Source: Bacteroidaceae bacterium
Lineage (GTDB): Bacteria; Bacteroidota; Bacteroidia; Bacteroidales; Bacteroidaceae
DNA: 64,000 nt
Assembly: GCA_024401115.1 (NCBI GenBank)
Contig: JAKSLP010000010.1
Location: 1 to 64,000, forward strand
Direction: 5' to 3'
Below the pieces are notes generated by a model that made no database searches, was not told the DNA's origin, and worked only from the letters and a program-made list of their open reading frames with translations. Of this stretch, positions 17,481 to 60,068 are shown piece after piece. Every line of letters starts with the position of its first letter. Position 1 is the first letter of the stretch. Made by a program: the position numbers and the translations under genes.

Positions 17481-17520
17481 AACGAAGAAGGCGCATATTC
17501 AATCATGCGCCTTCTTCGTT
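17481..17520. terminator. Hairpin between barrel gene and helicase gene
   Basis: A 16-bp perfect stem (AACGAAGAAGGCGCAT at 17481-17496 with 17505-17520) and an 8-base loop. Its right arm encodes the last codons of the convergent helicase gene, whose stop is at 17503-17505. T-runs are short, so efficiency as an intrinsic terminator is uncertain. Confidence 0.7.
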
Positions 17521-18924
17521 TAATGGCCAATTGACCAGAAATAATTTTTCAGTTGCCCGGGTAAAAGCGGTATATAGCCAATGAAAATAATCGGGCGAAA
17601 GTAACTCATCTGCCATATACCCTTGGTCAATATAAACATGTGCCCATTGTCCACCCTGACTTTTGTGACATGTCAATGCATAGGCATATTTCAGCTGGAT
17701 GGCATTGTAATACGGATCAGAACGTAGTGCCTTAAACAACTCCTTTTTGTTAGTTATGTGCTCGTAATCCTCCATGATCCTATTGAATAGAAGCTCATTG
17801 TCTGATGGACTTAACGCTGGAGATTCATTTTGTAAGGTGTTCAGCAAAACTGTGGCTTCTATTTCGATGTCGTTGAAGTCCGGGAATACCAATTGAACAT
17901 CGGCGAAATCAAATCCATACATCTCACGTATATTCCGAACTCGGCGAATAACAGCGATGTCTCCATTTGCAATAAAATCTATCTCTTTAATTTTCTCTGT
18001 CCAGTAATAATTGTTTTTAGCGATGATTACTCTGTCACCGCTACATAATATGTTCTCCCGATCAAGGACTTGAAACCGAATTCCGTTATTGTACGTATTT
18101 GCCATTTTGTTGCTTCTGCACACTACAACGGTATCATCTTCACCGACTTTGTAATAACTGTTGTTAAGTGATTCGATTAATTCAGTTCCAGCAAGTCTGC
18201 AGATATCCGAAAAACCGAAGAATTTGATTTTAGGCATCGTAAAACAGGTTCCAGTTTGCAACATGTTGCGTATGGCTGTGGCATTGTATAATATGCCAGA
18301 CTCTGAAGATTGTCTTACTACTTGAGTGATTTCTTCATTAATGACAGTTAGCCCTAAACACCTTAGAGCATCAGTAGACAATGCCGGGCAGTCCTCTTCA
18401 CCGATAGGAGGCAACTGAGCGGTATCTCCAATGAGTATGAGCTTGCAATTTTCACCTTGGAGAACAAAACTAATAAGATCATTCAATAGTTTGCCTGTCC
18501 CGAATTTATTACCGGAAAGCCCATTGTTGCCAATCATTGAGGCCTCGTCAACAAAAAAGATGGTGTTGGGATATTTGTTGAAATTGATATCAAAATCTCC
18601 ATTAAAAGATGTTGATGAGCTTTCTCTGTAAATTCGCTTATGTATGGTATAAGAAGGGTAGTTCGCATAGCTTGAGAAGACTTTTGCAGCTCTTCCTGTA
18701 GGAGCTAAAAGCATAACCTTTTGCTTCAATTCTATTAAGGTTTTTACGATGGAAGCAACAAGTGTAGTCTTGCCGGTTCCAGCATATCCTTTTAAGACAA
18801 AAACCTGAAATGGTTCTGTGGAAAAGATATAATCGGATATAGAATTAAGCACTTTTTCTTGCTGAAAAGTTGGTTGGAAGCCAAATTTTTCTTTAATTTG
18901 CTGCTTGAAATAGGTCTTTATCAT
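17503..18924 (-). CDS. RecD-like ATP-dependent DNA helicase (superfamily 1B)
   Basis: A 473-residue helicase with Walker A GYAGTGKTT (residues 46-54), Walker B FFVDEAS (Asp125-Glu126), IGDTAQLPP (motif III region) and the C-terminal UvrD_C_2-type motif TCHKSQGGQW. It lacks the long N-terminal domains of RecD/RecD2, so it matches the short AAA_30 plus UvrD-C2 helicases common in Bacteroidota. A role in DNA repair or replication restart is inferred from the family only. The final codons lie inside the hairpin shared with the barrel gene. Confidence 0.88.
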   Translation of the reverse strand: MIKTYFKQQIKEKFGFQPTFQQEKVLNSISDYIFSTEPFQVFVLKGYAGTGKTTLVASIVKTLIELKQKVMLLAPTGRAAKVFSSYANYPSYTIHKRIYRESSSTSFNGDFDINFNKYPNTIFFVDEASMIGNNGLSGNKFGTGKLLNDLISFVLQGENCKLILIGDTAQLPPIGEEDCPALSTDALRCLGLTVINEEITQVVRQSSESGILYNATAIRNMLQTGTCFTMPKIKFFGFSDICRLAGTELIESLNNSYYKVGEDDTVVVCRSNKMANTYNNGIRFQVLDRENILCSGDRVIIAKNNYYWTEKIKEIDFIANGDIAVIRRVRNIREMYGFDFADVQLVFPDFNDIEIEATVLLNTLQNESPALSPSDNELLFNRIMEDYEHITNKKELFKALRSDPYYNAIQLKYAYALTCHKSQGGQWAHVYIDQGYMADELLSPDYFHWLYTAFTRATEKLFLVNWPLNEEGA

Positions 18925-19021: not shown

Positions 19022-19696
19022 ATGAAATCTTTAATTAATGCAATTTTGGTGGTTTGCGGCCTTGGTTTGCTGTACGTATGTTACAGCATCATTATGGACC
19101 CAATTAACTTCCAGAACGAGAGAGACGTTCGCGAGAAAGCAATTATCGCTCGTCTGATTGACATCCGTAAGGCACAGGTTGAGTATCGTACCCAGCATCA
19201 GGGTAAGTACACTGACAACTTCGATTCTTTGATCGCTTTTGTTAAGACTGGTCAGTTGCCTTTCATCAGCAAGGTTGGTGTATTGAGCGATGAGCAGCTG
19301 GAGGCTGGTTTGACCGAGGCTAAGGCTATTGCTATTGTTCGTAGCGGTAATGCTGAAGAAATTGCAAAGAATGGTCTGCAGAATTTCCGTCGTGATACCA
19401 TTTGGAGAAGCGTATTGGATACTATCTATGGCCCAGGTTTCAACGTAGATTCTATTCGCTATATTCCTTTCAGCGGTGGCAAGCAGTTTGAGATGGCTGT
19501 TCGCAGCGATACCACTGATAAGGGTCAGCCTCTGAACTTGTTCCAGGCACAGGCAGCTTATGATACTTATCTGTCAGACCTGAATCATCAGGAGTTGGTT
19601 AACTTGAAGGATACTCAGGAGAAGTTAGGCAAGTATGTAGGTCTTCGCGTAGGCGATATCGAGACTCCTAATAACAATGCTGGTAACTGGGAGTAA
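19022..19696 (+). CDS. Uncharacterised membrane-anchored protein, pilin-like N-terminal layout
   Basis: I know no characterised function for this 224-residue protein. Residues 5-24 form one hydrophobic segment, followed by a charged helix (about 33-60) with the pattern KAQVEYRTQHQGKYTDNFD. That pattern recalls the helix after the membrane segment in pseudopilins, though no prepilin-peptidase site is present. The remainder is soluble, probably outside the membrane. Codon usage is as biased as in the fumarase, TonB and ExbB genes, unlike the AT-rich genes that follow, suggesting abundance. The end overlaps the DUF3822 gene by 20 bases. Confidence 0.8.
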   Translation: MKSLINAILVVCGLGLLYVCYSIIMDPINFQNERDVREKAIIARLIDIRKAQVEYRTQHQGKYTDNFDSLIAFVKTGQLPFISKVGVLSDEQLEAGLTEAKAIAIVRSGNAEEIAKNGLQNFRRDTIWRSVLDTIYGPGFNVDSIRYIPFSGGKQFEMAVRSDTTDKGQPLNLFQAQAAYDTYLSDLNHQELVNLKDTQEKLGKYVGLRVGDIETPNNNAGNWE

Positions 19697-20495
19697 TTAT
19701 AACCTAAATAATAGTTTATCCATCCGTATTAGTACGGATGGATTTTCTTTTTCTGCTTTTTTGCCACACGAGTCTCAAAACAGATTCCAACATATTTCAT
19801 ACTCAATTAATCCGGATATATCGGTGGCTGCAAATCTAAAGGATGCTTTGGCGACTTTAGACATTGTCCGGAAAAAATACCATAGCATTCAGGTCTTGAT
19901 TGACAGTCCGTGCTGCCATATTCCTTTTGATGGTTTTGAGGAAGACAGAGTAGCTGACATCTTTAGCTATTGCTATCCGACAGAACAAGGGAAACGTGTG
20001 TTGTACAATATTCTCTCCCGTTGTAATGCTGTGGTTCTTTTTTGCATAGAGAAGAATGTACATCAACTGCTGGTGGATAATTTCCCAAATGCACATTTTT
20101 ATTCTATAGAGACCCCTATCATGGAACATTTGGTAGGAAAATCCAGCGCAAGAGATACGCAAAAGATGTTTGCTGTCTTTTATCCACACAAAATGTTGAC
20201 TTTAGTTGCGGCAGGTGGAAAAATATCGTATGTGAACAGCTTTTCTGCTGCAAGCAGTAATGATTATGTTTATTTTTTGCTTCATGCATGGAAGTCGCAG
20301 GGCTTAAATCAGTTTACAGATGAGATGCATATTGTTGGTGACTTTCCTCAGAAAAATGAACTGATGAATGAATTAAGGCGATATGTTCGGCAGATTTATC
20401 AAATTGTTCCATCGGCAGAGTTTAATCGTTCTGAGGTGTCTACATTCCCACAGTTGCCATATGATTTGGTGACTCTTCTTTCCATTTCTTTATAA
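19677..20495 (+). CDS. DUF3822 family protein, possibly actin-like fold
   Basis: A 272-residue protein without signal peptide or membrane segment, matching DUF3822 proteins found beside rsmD in Bacteroidota. The arrangement of short beta-hairpins at the start (LSIRISTDGFSFSAF), the central LTLVAAGGKISYVNSF and the late HIVGDFPQKNEL is reminiscent of the actin-like fold of PilM/GspL, but this is inference by eye. The start at 19677 lies inside the previous gene (20-base overlap, different frame); I see no better downstream start. It is followed by rsmD after 10 bases. Confidence 0.75.
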   Translation: MLVTGSNYNLNNSLSIRISTDGFSFSAFLPHESQNRFQHISYSINPDISVAANLKDALATLDIVRKKYHSIQVLIDSPCCHIPFDGFEEDRVADIFSYCYPTEQGKRVLYNILSRCNAVVLFCIEKNVHQLLVDNFPNAHFYSIETPIMEHLVGKSSARDTQKMFAVFYPHKMLTLVAAGGKISYVNSFSAASSNDYVYFLLHAWKSQGLNQFTDEMHIVGDFPQKNELMNELRRYVRQIYQIVPSAEFNRSEVSTFPQLPYDLVTLLSISL

Positions 20496-20505
20496 TAAAA
20501 TTTGC

Positions 20506-21048
20506 ATGCGTGTAATTTCTGGTATTTATAAGCGTAAGCGTTTTGATGTACCTCGTTCTTTTAAAGCGAGGCCAACTACAGACTTTGCAAAAGAAAATCT
20601 TTTTAATGTTCTCAATGCCTATTTTGATTTTGAAGACGACAATGTTCAAGCTTTAGACCTTTTTGCCGGTACAGGCAGTATAAGCATTGAATTGGTTAGC
20701 AGAGGCTGTGAAAGGGTGGTGGCTGTGGAAAGGGATAGGCAACACTTTGCTTTTATAAAGAAGGTAATGGAGGATGTTAAGACAGACCGGTGTTTCCCGA
20801 TTTGTGGTGATGTCTTCAAATTTATCTCTAAAACATCTGAAAAATTTGATTTCATTTTTGCAGATCCACCTTATGCTTTGAAGGAGTTAGGAACGATACC
20901 TGATTTAATATTCCATTTTGATTTATTAAAGGAAGATGGATTGTTTGTCCTAGAACATGGAAAAGACTATAGTTTTGCGGATCATCCTTGTTTTGAGGAA
21001 CATCGCGAATATGGAAGCGTGAATTTTTCTTTCTTTAGAAGAAAATAA
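20506..21048 (+). CDS. rsmD: 16S rRNA (guanine(966)-N(2))-methyltransferase
   Basis: Methylates G966 of 16S rRNA using S-adenosylmethionine. The SAM site ALDLFAGTGSISIEL is at about residues 49-63 and the catalytic DPPY is at residues 120-123. The N-terminal IYKRKRFDVP and RPTTDFAKENLFN are typical for the family, as is the 180-residue length. Last gene of the three-gene run, ending at a terminator shared with alaS. Confidence 0.94.
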   Translation: MRVISGIYKRKRFDVPRSFKARPTTDFAKENLFNVLNAYFDFEDDNVQALDLFAGTGSISIELVSRGCERVVAVERDRQHFAFIKKVMEDVKTDRCFPICGDVFKFISKTSEKFDFIFADPPYALKELGTIPDLIFHFDLLKEDGLFVLEHGKDYSFADHPCFEEHREYGSVNFSFFRRK

Positions 21049-57651: not shown

Positions 57652-58470
57652 ATGAAAAAGATTTTTGCAATTGTTGCAATGATGGGTATGATGACCTTCG
57701 GTCTGACCCAGAATGTGATGGCACAGGACGAGGCTGCTGCTCCTGAATCTGAGGCTACAGAACAGGTAGAAGAGGCTGCTCCTGCACAGGAAGAGGCTGT
57801 TGCTGAGGAGGAGACTCCAGCAATCGAGGCAGGTGAGACTTCACTGCATCAGGAGTTGAAGACCAAGTTCATCGAGGGTGACGCTGGCTTTATGTCAATC
57901 GTTGCTGTCGCTTTGATCGTAGGTTTGGCTTTCTGTATCGAGCGTATTATTTACCTGAGCTTGGCTGACGTTAACGTTAAGAAGCTGATGGGTGCTTTGG
58001 AGGCTAAGTTGGCTGCTAAGGATATCGAGGGTGCAAAGAAGGTTTGCCGTGATTCTCGTGGTCCTGTAGCTTCTATCTGCTACCAGGGTTTGATGCACAT
58101 GGATGAGGGTCTGGATGTTGTTGAGCGTACCGTTACTTCTTACGGTGGTGTTCAGGCAGGTTACTTGGAGCGCAACTGCTCTTGGATCACTCTGTGTATC
58201 GCAATGGCTCCATCTTTGGGATTCTTGGGTACTGTAGTAGGTATGGTACAGGCATTCGATAAGATCCAGCAGGTTGGTGATATCAGCCCTACCGTTGTTG
58301 CAGGTGGTATGAAGGTGGCTTTGATTACTACTTTGTTCGGTATTATCGTTGCATTGATTCTGCAGTTCTTCTATAACTTCGTATTGTCAAAGATCGAGGC
58401 TATCACCAGCAACATGGAGGATTCTTCAATCTCTCTGCTGGATATGATCACCAAGGCAAAGTTGGCATAA
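57652..58470 (+). CDS. exbB: MotA/TolQ/ExbB proton channel family protein
   Basis: Proton-channel subunit of the TonB energising complex. Unlike E. coli ExbB it begins with a signal-like hydrophobic segment (residues 1-25, ending NVMAQ) followed by an acidic Ala/Glu-rich stretch (about 26-62), then the canonical three membrane segments (about 80-100, 180-200 and 220-245). The conserved region SLGFLGTVVGMVQAFDKI is present. The 272 residues are strongly codon-biased. First gene of exbB-membrane protein-exbD-exbD. Confidence 0.92.
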   Translation: MKKIFAIVAMMGMMTFGLTQNVMAQDEAAAPESEATEQVEEAAPAQEEAVAEEETPAIEAGETSLHQELKTKFIEGDAGFMSIVAVALIVGLAFCIERIIYLSLADVNVKKLMGALEAKLAAKDIEGAKKVCRDSRGPVASICYQGLMHMDEGLDVVERTVTSYGGVQAGYLERNCSWITLCIAMAPSLGFLGTVVGMVQAFDKIQQVGDISPTVVAGGMKVALITTLFGIIVALILQFFYNFVLSKIEAITSNMEDSSISLLDMITKAKLA

Positions 58471-58512
58471 TGTGAAACTGTTATAGTTGCGAACTAATTA
58501 ATCAATAAAACA

Positions 58513-58980
58513 ATGAAAATTCAGAAAATTTCTGCTAACGTTCTGTACGTATGCTTCGCCCTGATTGCAGTGGTGTTGGTACTGTTCTATTGCGTTGGCT
58601 TCGACAATATGTCTGATGACGGAGAGCACAACGCTCCTCAGTTCACCGAGGCATTGATGTTCCTGATGTACGGCTTGGCTGCAGCTACCGCATTGGTTAC
58701 TGTATGGAGCTTTGCATCTAGCTTGGGACATGGTGTAGATGATGCCAAGACTGGTGTTCCTGGTTCTAAGATTACTATTGCTACTGTTGTTATCCTGGCT
58801 GCAACTATTGGTGTAGGTTTCGCAGTTGGTTCTTCAGCTCCTGTAACCTTGACCGATGGTACTCAGGTTGGTGGTTTTACAAGCTTAGGCTCAGAGGCTA
58901 TCATTATCTGTATGTACTTGCTGGCAGTTATCGCTACTGTTGGTTTGATCGTAAGTTTGGCTGGTATCTTTAAAAAGTAA
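58513..58980 (+). CDS. Uncharacterised four-helix membrane protein in exb operon
   Basis: A 155-residue protein with four hydrophobic segments (about 9-28, 45-66, 83-105 and 127-151) and no recognised domain. Loops are short, and VGSSAPVTLTDGTQVGG between segments 3 and 4 is probably periplasmic. It sits between exbB (42 bases) and the first exbD (18 bases) and shares their strong codon bias, so it is probably made in comparable amounts and may be part of, or regulate, the ExbB/D complex. That role is inference from position only. Confidence 0.82.
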   Translation: MKIQKISANVLYVCFALIAVVLVLFYCVGFDNMSDDGEHNAPQFTEALMFLMYGLAAATALVTVWSFASSLGHGVDDAKTGVPGSKITIATVVILAATIGVGFAVGSSAPVTLTDGTQVGGFTSLGSEAIIICMYLLAVIATVGLIVSLAGIFKK

Positions 58981-58998
58981 TTAAGAAAGGAGAGAAAT

Positions 58999-59598
58999 AT
59001 GGCAAAGAAAAGAAAAGTGCCTGGTTTGAATACCAGTTCTACTGCTGATATCTCTTTCATCCTGCTCATCTTCTTCTTGATTACTACTTCAATGGATACT
59101 GATAGAGGTTTGGCACGTCAGTTGCCTCCTCCACCAGAAGAGAACGCTGAAGTAAAAGATATTATTGTTAAGGAGCGTAACATCTTGAATGTTCGTATGA
59201 ACTCAGCTGGTAACCTGATGTTGGAAAACATGGATGGTCAGCGTTTCATCAAACTGGATGAGTTGCGTGAGATTGTTAAGGAGTTCATTGAGAACCCTAA
59301 CAATTCCGATAACATGCCAGAGCTTCATGAAGAGAACATTCCTTATTTCGGTAAGGTAATGATTACAAAGAATCACGTAATCTCTGTGCAGAACGACCGT
59401 GGTACACCTTATAAGGTATACTTCTCAGTTCAGCACGAGTTGGTTGCAGCTTACAATGACTTGCGTGAGGCTGTTTCTAAGAAGCAGTTTGGTAAACCAT
59501 ACGCTTCTTTGACAGAGGATCAGCAGAAGGCTGTACGTGATTATTATCCTCAGAAGATTTCTGAGGCTGAACCTAAAAACTATGGAGGAAAGAAATAA
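58999..59598 (+). CDS. exbD: ExbD/TolR family protein (first copy)
   Basis: Periplasmic/membrane partner of ExbB. One membrane helix (about residues 17-35) includes the conserved proton-carrying Asp17 in TADISFILLIFFLI. The periplasmic domain is longer than usual (199 residues in total), with an Asn/Glu-rich insert near residues 95-112 and a basic tail. Its stop overlaps the start of the second exbD by one base (TAATG). Confidence 0.92.
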   Translation: MAKKRKVPGLNTSSTADISFILLIFFLITTSMDTDRGLARQLPPPPEENAEVKDIIVKERNILNVRMNSAGNLMLENMDGQRFIKLDELREIVKEFIENPNNSDNMPELHEENIPYFGKVMITKNHVISVQNDRGTPYKVYFSVQHELVAAYNDLREAVSKKQFGKPYASLTEDQQKAVRDYYPQKISEAEPKNYGGKK

Positions 59599-60068
59599 TG
59601 GGAAAGTTTAATGGTGGCGAGAAGAAAGGTATGCCTGAATTGAATACCAGTTCACTTCCTGACTTGATCTTCTCAATTCTGTTCTTCTTCATGATGGTAA
59701 CCTCTATGCGTGAGGTTTCTTTGAAGGTTCAGTTTAAGGTTCCTCAGGGACAGACAGCAGTTTTGGAGAAATTGGAAAAGAAGTCTTTGGTATCTTTCGT
59801 ATACATTGGCGCACCTACTAAGGAGTTCCAGGCAAAGATGGGTACTGAGAGCCGTATTCAGCTGAACGATAAGTTCGCTGAGCCAGATGAGGTTCAGGAT
59901 TACATTCAGCAGGAGCGTATGAACATGAGTGAGGCAGATCAGCCATTTATGAAGGTTTCTTTGAAGGCTGATGAGAATACTCAGATGGGTATCATCACTG
60001 ATGTTAAGCAGGCTTTGCGTAAGGCTTATGCTTTGAAGATTAACTATTCTGCACGTGGTGGTGAATAA
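59598..60068 (+). CDS. exbD: ExbD/TolR family protein (second copy)
   Basis: Second ExbD of the operon, 156 residues. The membrane helix (about 22-40) begins with the conserved Asp22 in SLPDLIFSILFFFMM, and the C-terminal DVKQALRKAYALKINYS matches the family. The two copies share the LNTSS...D start but differ strongly afterwards, so a heteromeric ExbD pair is likely; this is inference. Followed by a terminator. Confidence 0.92.
   Translation: MGKFNGGEKKGMPELNTSSLPDLIFSILFFFMMVTSMREVSLKVQFKVPQGQTAVLEKLEKKSLVSFVYIGAPTKEFQAKMGTESRIQLNDKFAEPDEVQDYIQQERMNMSEADQPFMKVSLKADENTQMGIITDVKQALRKAYALKINYSARGGE

Follow-up and report, generated by a model that had tools for sequence, protein, structure and literature searches.

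The window (the whole 64,000-nucleotide stretch analyzed, from one contig of a Bacteroidaceae bacterium) carries a pair of overlapping genes encoding a 224-residue membrane protein, here called P224, and a DUF3822 protein:

17503 to 18924, minus strand: divergent RecD/PIF1-like helicase gene (AAA_30, E = 5.9e-21; UvrD_C_2, E = 1.8e-19), given as context
19022 to 19696, plus strand: P224, 224 aa, predicted leaderless pilin-like inner-membrane protein
19677 to 19696, plus strand: 20-nt overlap of the P224 and DUF3822 reading frames
19677 to 20495, plus strand: DUF3822 gene, 272 aa, cytoplasmic protein with a PilM/GspL-type actin-like fold and no D-x-G motif
20506 to 21048, plus strand: rsmD-like methyltransferase gene, the usual downstream neighbor, given as context outside the pair

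The preliminary description of this locus had proposed a translationally overlapping pair, and the two reading frames do share 20 nt. The second gene product matched PF12864 (E = 4.5e-52, Pfam); P224 matched no Pfam family and had no meaningful NCBIfam match. P224 has one N-terminal membrane helix (about residues 4 to 24), a conserved Pro27, and an amphipathic helix to about residue 59; beyond it lies a domain predicted to be periplasmic, in which the motif D(S/T)(A/I/L/V/M/T) occurs five times. The gene downstream of the pair is presumably rsmD-like, as judged by the sequence of that family. In B. theta, BT_3979 is described as a putative methyltransferase (PMC8931616); we considered BT_3979, which is mentioned in a glycoproteome paper, as a possible P224 and rejected it because it is the methyltransferase.

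P224 was found in 41 of 61 genomes of its own family by single-sequence search and in 123 of 296 genomes of the phylum by profile search, which recovered DUF3822 in 77 of the same 296 (72 over the cutoff). A hand count over the 73 genomes of its own class gave P224 in 30 and DUF3822 in 72; the single genome missed by the DUF3822 profile has a weak Pfam match to this family in its locus L036 (E = 6.2e-4). Of the 73, 43 had DUF3822 but no P224 match, and no P224 ORF lay near DUF3822 in any of 20 sampled class loci of that kind. DUF3822 lies immediately 3′ of P224 in 48 of 52 first loci; a 286- to 322-aa ORF takes its place in the remaining 4 and in 18 of 20 deep-lineage loci (the two sets overlap), and the gene order is maintained from Bacteroidales to other classes. 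Thus, P224 is accompanied by DUF3822, but DUF3822 is independent of P224, which suggests a separate role for DUF3822 where P224 is missing. In the 20 loci without P224 (L053 to L072), DUF3822 directly precedes rsmD in 17 and a coaD-like gene in 3. A search of viral contigs found no relative. For alignment we used 38 P224 and 35 DUF3822 sequences from the loci in hand, omitting near-duplicates, and PilM-like sequences from 18 of the 20 deep-lineage loci, omitting L083 (no intact partner ORF by our filter) and L089 (next ORF unrelated).

The PilM/GspL-type actin-like fold suspected for DUF3822 was confirmed, and it is in fact already on record. A profile of the 35 sequences matched Protein Data Bank (PDB) entry 3HRG (E = 1.3e-93), which is B. 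thetaiotaomicron BT_3980, titled as an actin-like ATPase fold and belonging to the same DUF3822 family as the window gene, with no family-level difference. In the excerpted text of PMC3984277, the one paper in which our literature search found 3HRG named, this structure is the next DALI match after N-BfpC for the type IVb pilus protein N-PilO2 (Z = 7.4), linking DUF3822 to the cytoplasmic domains of GspL, BfpC, and PilO2, which have the same actin-like fold. A model of the window protein built from six sequences (pLDDT 75.5) retrieved 3HRG first with Foldseek, then PilM (∼1e-9), FtsA (6e-8), and PulL (3.7e-6); VIA-align Z scores of 8.7 for FtsA, 8.2 for PilM, and 8.0 for MreB are tied and favor none of them.

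Sequence comparison supports descent of DUF3822 from PilM more specifically. When searched against the PDB, the PilM-like counterpart from the 18 deep-lineage loci matched four PilM entries (E = 3.3e-12, 1.3e-9, 9.4e-8, and 1.1e-7), with the next match at 0.9, and PilM_2 was found in 4 of the 18 (best E, 1.2e-9). DUF3822 itself is linked to PilM only through these counterparts, in which the similarity is direct: hhalign matched the DUF3822 and PilM-like profiles with a probability of 86.7 to 92.5 and a score of 47 to 54 over 112 to 120 columns, whereas none of 19 other profiles scored above 20.6 and none of 150 permutations above 18.8. Like PilM (2YCH, 5EOX, and 3JC8), the DUF3822 protein is soluble and encoded beside a bitopic membrane protein; unlike the PilM system, the pair includes no PilN, and no pilus motor was found in its own genome. 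PilM also differs in the D-x-G motif, a nucleotide-binding motif that occurred in none of the 35 DUF3822 or 18 PilM-like sequences (a count made with no positive control), which makes nucleotide use by DUF3822 doubtful. GspL and BfpC are fused to a membrane helix, unlike DUF3822. The GspL architecture, a cytoplasmic domain fused to a membrane helix and a periplasmic domain, is absent from the 272-aa DUF3822 protein, which ends after the actin-like domain. GspL of local clusters was rejected as the closest kin, there being no profile signal (scores of 14.5 for DUF3822 and 16.2 for the PilM-like family).

The likeness of P224 to pseudopilins required a set of Bacteroidota pilins for comparison. 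Since PF08334 had no match in 16 deep-lineage genomes, these were collected by leader motif: 33 leader-bearing pilin-like ORFs from 20 Bacteroidota PilC/GspF regions, of which eight form a family of 125-aa major pilins. At full length, P224 matched this family with an hhalign score of 30.1 to 30.2 and a probability of 39 to 45 (32.4 and 55 with a larger P224 set) and matched three leader-bearing minor pseudopilin families of the same clusters with scores of 27.8 to 33.9, whereas unrelated families scored at most 19.0. The match spans the membrane helix, the proline kink, and the helix end. With the membrane helices removed, the score was 20.0 to 26.8, and from the proline on, the alignment kept to the zero diagonal without gaps; unrelated families scored at most 16.3 against the pilin so trimmed, compared with 26.8 for P224. 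None of 300 column-permuted controls in each of four tests reached the observed score, although, because permuted columns lose the periodicity of the helix, comparison with real families is the more telling control. P224 thus has the pilin arrangement of an N-terminal membrane helix with a proline kink running into an amphipathic α1 helix, and the proline is conserved in 31 of 38 P224 sequences and 20 of 20 deep-lineage relatives. The latter matched the P224 profile with a probability of 99.9; three of the 20 touched T2SSG (best E, 0.0038; two weaker), and a PDB search with them reached GspG at E = 0.13; these matches are suggestive but not significant alone. A Bacteroidales-weighted P224 profile retrieved only chance matches from the PDB, and no pilin. 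These profile comparisons support descent of P224 from pilins, so the likeness noted in the preliminary description stood up to controls; on the other side, the pairwise probabilities are modest (39 to 55%), and an AF2 model from six close sequences was poor (pLDDT 44.7), too poor to show whether a pilin-type β-sheet head follows the helix.

P224 is nevertheless not an ordinary pilin. The class III prepilin leader motif was absent from all 38 P224 sequences and all 20 deep-lineage relatives (positive control, 8 of 8), and the column aligned to pilin Glu5 holds V, L, I, or S, never Glu. Prepilin peptidase (PF01478) was found in none of 16 P224-bearing Bacteroidia genomes, including the host genome, where we also found no T2SSF (PilC/GspF) and no convincing GspE/PilB, the sole T2SSE match being below the cutoff; that assembly is 87% complete, so absence there is weak evidence alone. 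T2SSE was strong in 2 of the 16 genomes, and the other matches were weak, all but one below the cutoff and that one borderline. T2SSF was found in 4 of 30 P224-bearing Bacteroidia genomes and is present in many deep-lineage genomes. The missing leader and Glu5, the lack of these genes in the host genome, and the usual retention of DUF3822 where P224 is lacking leave unsupported the earlier suggestion that the pair would be a minimal trans-envelope assembly. Compared with GspG and the major pilins of Bacteroidota type II secretion system (T2SS)-like clusters, P224 aligns in register at the membrane helix, the proline kink, the amphipathic helix, and the end motif, but it lacks the leader and Glu5 and has a longer C-terminal part. 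Mitochondrial T2SS GspG, as described in the excerpt of PMC10128026, is a pseudopilin whose system likewise has no prepilin peptidase; it differs from P224 in being cleaved from a long precursor and in having GspE and GspF, neither of which was seen in the host genome.

Among side observations, T2SSF occurred in 10 of 73 genomes of class Bacteroidia, and the search for PF01478 failed to find it even in two genomes with T2SSE, G163 and G286. Loci L105 to L128 hold Bacteroidota T2SS- or type IV pilus-like clusters that encode pilins with leaders as well as a GspL-PilN fusion and a GspM-like protein. According to the excerpted text of PMC6668835, Bacteroidetes T2SS-like systems are peculiar, and generic systems are defined by ATPase, platform, and major pilin; by that definition, a pair lacking all three would be passed over. 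In the literature searched, we found no paper naming DUF3822, PF12864, BT_3980, BT_3981 (presumably the gene upstream of BT_3980, from the gene order), or either of two UniProt accessions assigned by inference; a concept search was likewise empty, and no functional datum for the pair or for BT_3980 was found in print.

A further difference from pilins lies in the C-terminal domain. Noncytoplasmic proteins of Bacteroidota are O-glycosylated at D(S/T)(A/I/L/V/M/T), according to the excerpts of PMC12871550 and PMC10897501. The 38 P224 sequences contain 157 such motifs, compared to a shuffle mean of 23.8 and maximum of 39, and the 20 deep-lineage relatives contain 93 (13.8 expected; shuffle maximum, 23). 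The motif is thus about seven times over-represented in P224 but not in DUF3822, where it is at chance (26 versus 24.4), as it is in the PilM-like family (11 versus 14.1); P224 had the highest density among all families counted, and no motif occurred in the nine pilins of the family counted. The sites in the window protein, at residues 68, 125, 133, 143, and 163, are kept in 26, 34, 27, 23, and 13 of the 38 sequences, respectively. This excess argues for a periplasmic C-terminal domain and makes it probable that P224 carries several O-glycans, although D-S/T may instead have a structural role. The excess is new in this analysis, as is a ComEA-like gene found before the pair in deep-lineage loci (see below).

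Codon usage was compared among the 57 nonoverlapping window ORFs of at least 100 aa. The preferred-codon fraction of P224 was 0.89 (rank 3), a measure that is partly circular because the codon set was picked after the counts were inspected; its effective number of codons (Nc), 35.5 (4th lowest), is free of this circularity and gives the same picture. Bias was similarly strong (fraction and Nc) in ExbB-like (0.94 and 32.9), fumarase (0.91 and 34.1), and ExbD (0.88 and 35.0) genes and weak in the P224 neighbors DUF3822 (0.47 and 55.3), rsmD (0.37 and 46.9), and the helicase (0.34 and 59.3). The preliminary description had likened P224 to fumarase and ExbB among weakly biased neighbors, and this comparison bears it out, adding ExbD. 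Because ribosomal S12 was not found in the assembly (87% complete), there was no ribosomal reference set. Of 34 Bacteroidia pairs, 31 had a lower Nc in P224 than in the adjacent DUF3822 gene, so that, judging by codon usage, P224 is probably produced in larger amounts than its partner; Nc of P224 was lower than that of the PilM-like neighbor in 12 of 18 deep-lineage pairs. Elsewhere in the window (57652 to 60065), genes for an ExbB-like protein, an unknown 155-aa membrane protein, and ExbD-type proteins lie in a row and are, like P224, strongly biased; our domain scan of this row covered one ExbD only.

The kinship of both folds is fairly well supported, and the pair probably does something other than build an ordinary pilus, since the usual pilus motor parts were not found in such genomes. 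As a proposal for function, to which we give about an even chance, P224 and DUF3822 would derive from a type IV filament assembly platform, as a remnant or offshoot that has no motor. P224 would start approximately where a mature pilin starts, its first residues entering the membrane helix directly, followed by the pilin proline kink and a helix ending in the Y...G.Y stretch, with the C-terminal domain in the periplasm and probably bearing several O-glycans. DUF3822 would be the cytoplasmic actin-like partner, comparable to PilM or the GspL cytoplasmic domain and unlikely to use nucleotide. P224 may then outnumber DUF3822 and stay in the inner membrane as a nonextracted scaffold that DUF3822 recruits or organizes, perhaps in DNA handling at the envelope, which we suggest because some deep lineages have a ComEA-like gene in front of the pair. 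More tentatively, and with the odds against it, this could be a phylum-wide "anchored pilin" system, in which an abundant O-glycosylated pilin-stem protein, never cleaved or extruded, is organized by a cytoplasmic PilM-derived pseudo-actin and serves as a static or energy-free inner-membrane scaffold without motor, peptidase, or secretin.

P224 could instead be an unrelated single-pass membrane protein whose membrane helix and amphipathic helix resemble those of pilins by convergence, with DUF3822 a mere neighbor; the modest profile probability and the frequent occurrence of DUF3822 without P224 would fit. We consider this unlikely, given that the signal persists when the membrane helix is removed, with no gaps from the proline onward, that unrelated families reach at most 16.3 against 26.8 for P224 in that comparison, and that the same gene order recurs in Bacteroidales and in other classes. 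Alternatively, P224 might be not a pilin but the GspM/PilO/PilN-type bitopic partner of a PilM-like protein: the topology is alike, PilN is the solved partner of PilM (2YCH and 5EOU), and one of 20 deep-lineage members touched T2SSM (E = 0.085). However, hhalign against a GspM-like family (10 aligned Bacteroidota rows) gave scores of 15.7 to 15.8 and probabilities of 0.5 to 0.6, which is noise, compared with a score of 30 and probabilities of 39 to 45 for the pilin family. A GspM-type identity is unsupported in this comparison, which covered the GspM member of the three, and we hold this whole class of partner to be improbable.

DNA handling is hinted at by the ComEA-like neighbor: in at least 7 of 20 deep-lineage loci, a helix-hairpin-helix (HhH) gene lies directly upstream of P224, and all seven upstream proteins contain HHH_3 (E = 4.3e-17 or better) and are ComEA-like by length and domain. 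The pair might accordingly work alongside ComEA and ComEC in a DNA uptake machine that takes the place of the type IV pilus, which is absent from Bacteroidota such as Riemerella. The position of the ComEA-like gene directly 5′ of the pair favors this, as do HHH_3 proteins, including 250- to 390-aa ORFs with repeated HhH, in tested P224-bearing genomes, and the excerpt of PMC8459023 reports no pilus homologs in Riemerella, though it is competent. Yet no HhH gene adjoins the pair in the Bacteroidia loci inspected, HhH proteins occur in 16 of 16 genomes tested, so that their presence says little, and the excerpted account of the Riemerella transformation screen (3,000 mutants; PMC8459023) does not list a DUF3822 gene; such a machine seems to us a long shot. 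The motor-less, pilin-derived reading, if true, would mean that a type IV filament module survived loss of polymerization. It would give a testable identity to two uncharacterized Bacteroidota families, P224 and DUF3822, and put a name to an abundant inner-membrane glycoprotein of gut Bacteroidota as a candidate component of the envelope or of DNA handling.

P224 also occurs in variant forms, among them short relatives of 150 aa in deep-lineage loci such as L082 and L091. Three members of family f9 (L029:955-1764, L035:1486-2295, and L051:934-1758) have an extra insert of about 60 to 100 residues before the C-terminal part; that of L051 weakly matched Biotin_lipoyl (E = 0.0054) and the HlyD barrel-sandwich domain (E = 0.03), and those of L029 and L035 had no match in the domain scan. 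In some genomes of the Flavobacteria-like family f5 (L027, L030, L037, L040, L043, L044, and L047), P224 has a conserved N-terminal extension in which a positively charged loop accompanies what looks like an additional membrane helix.
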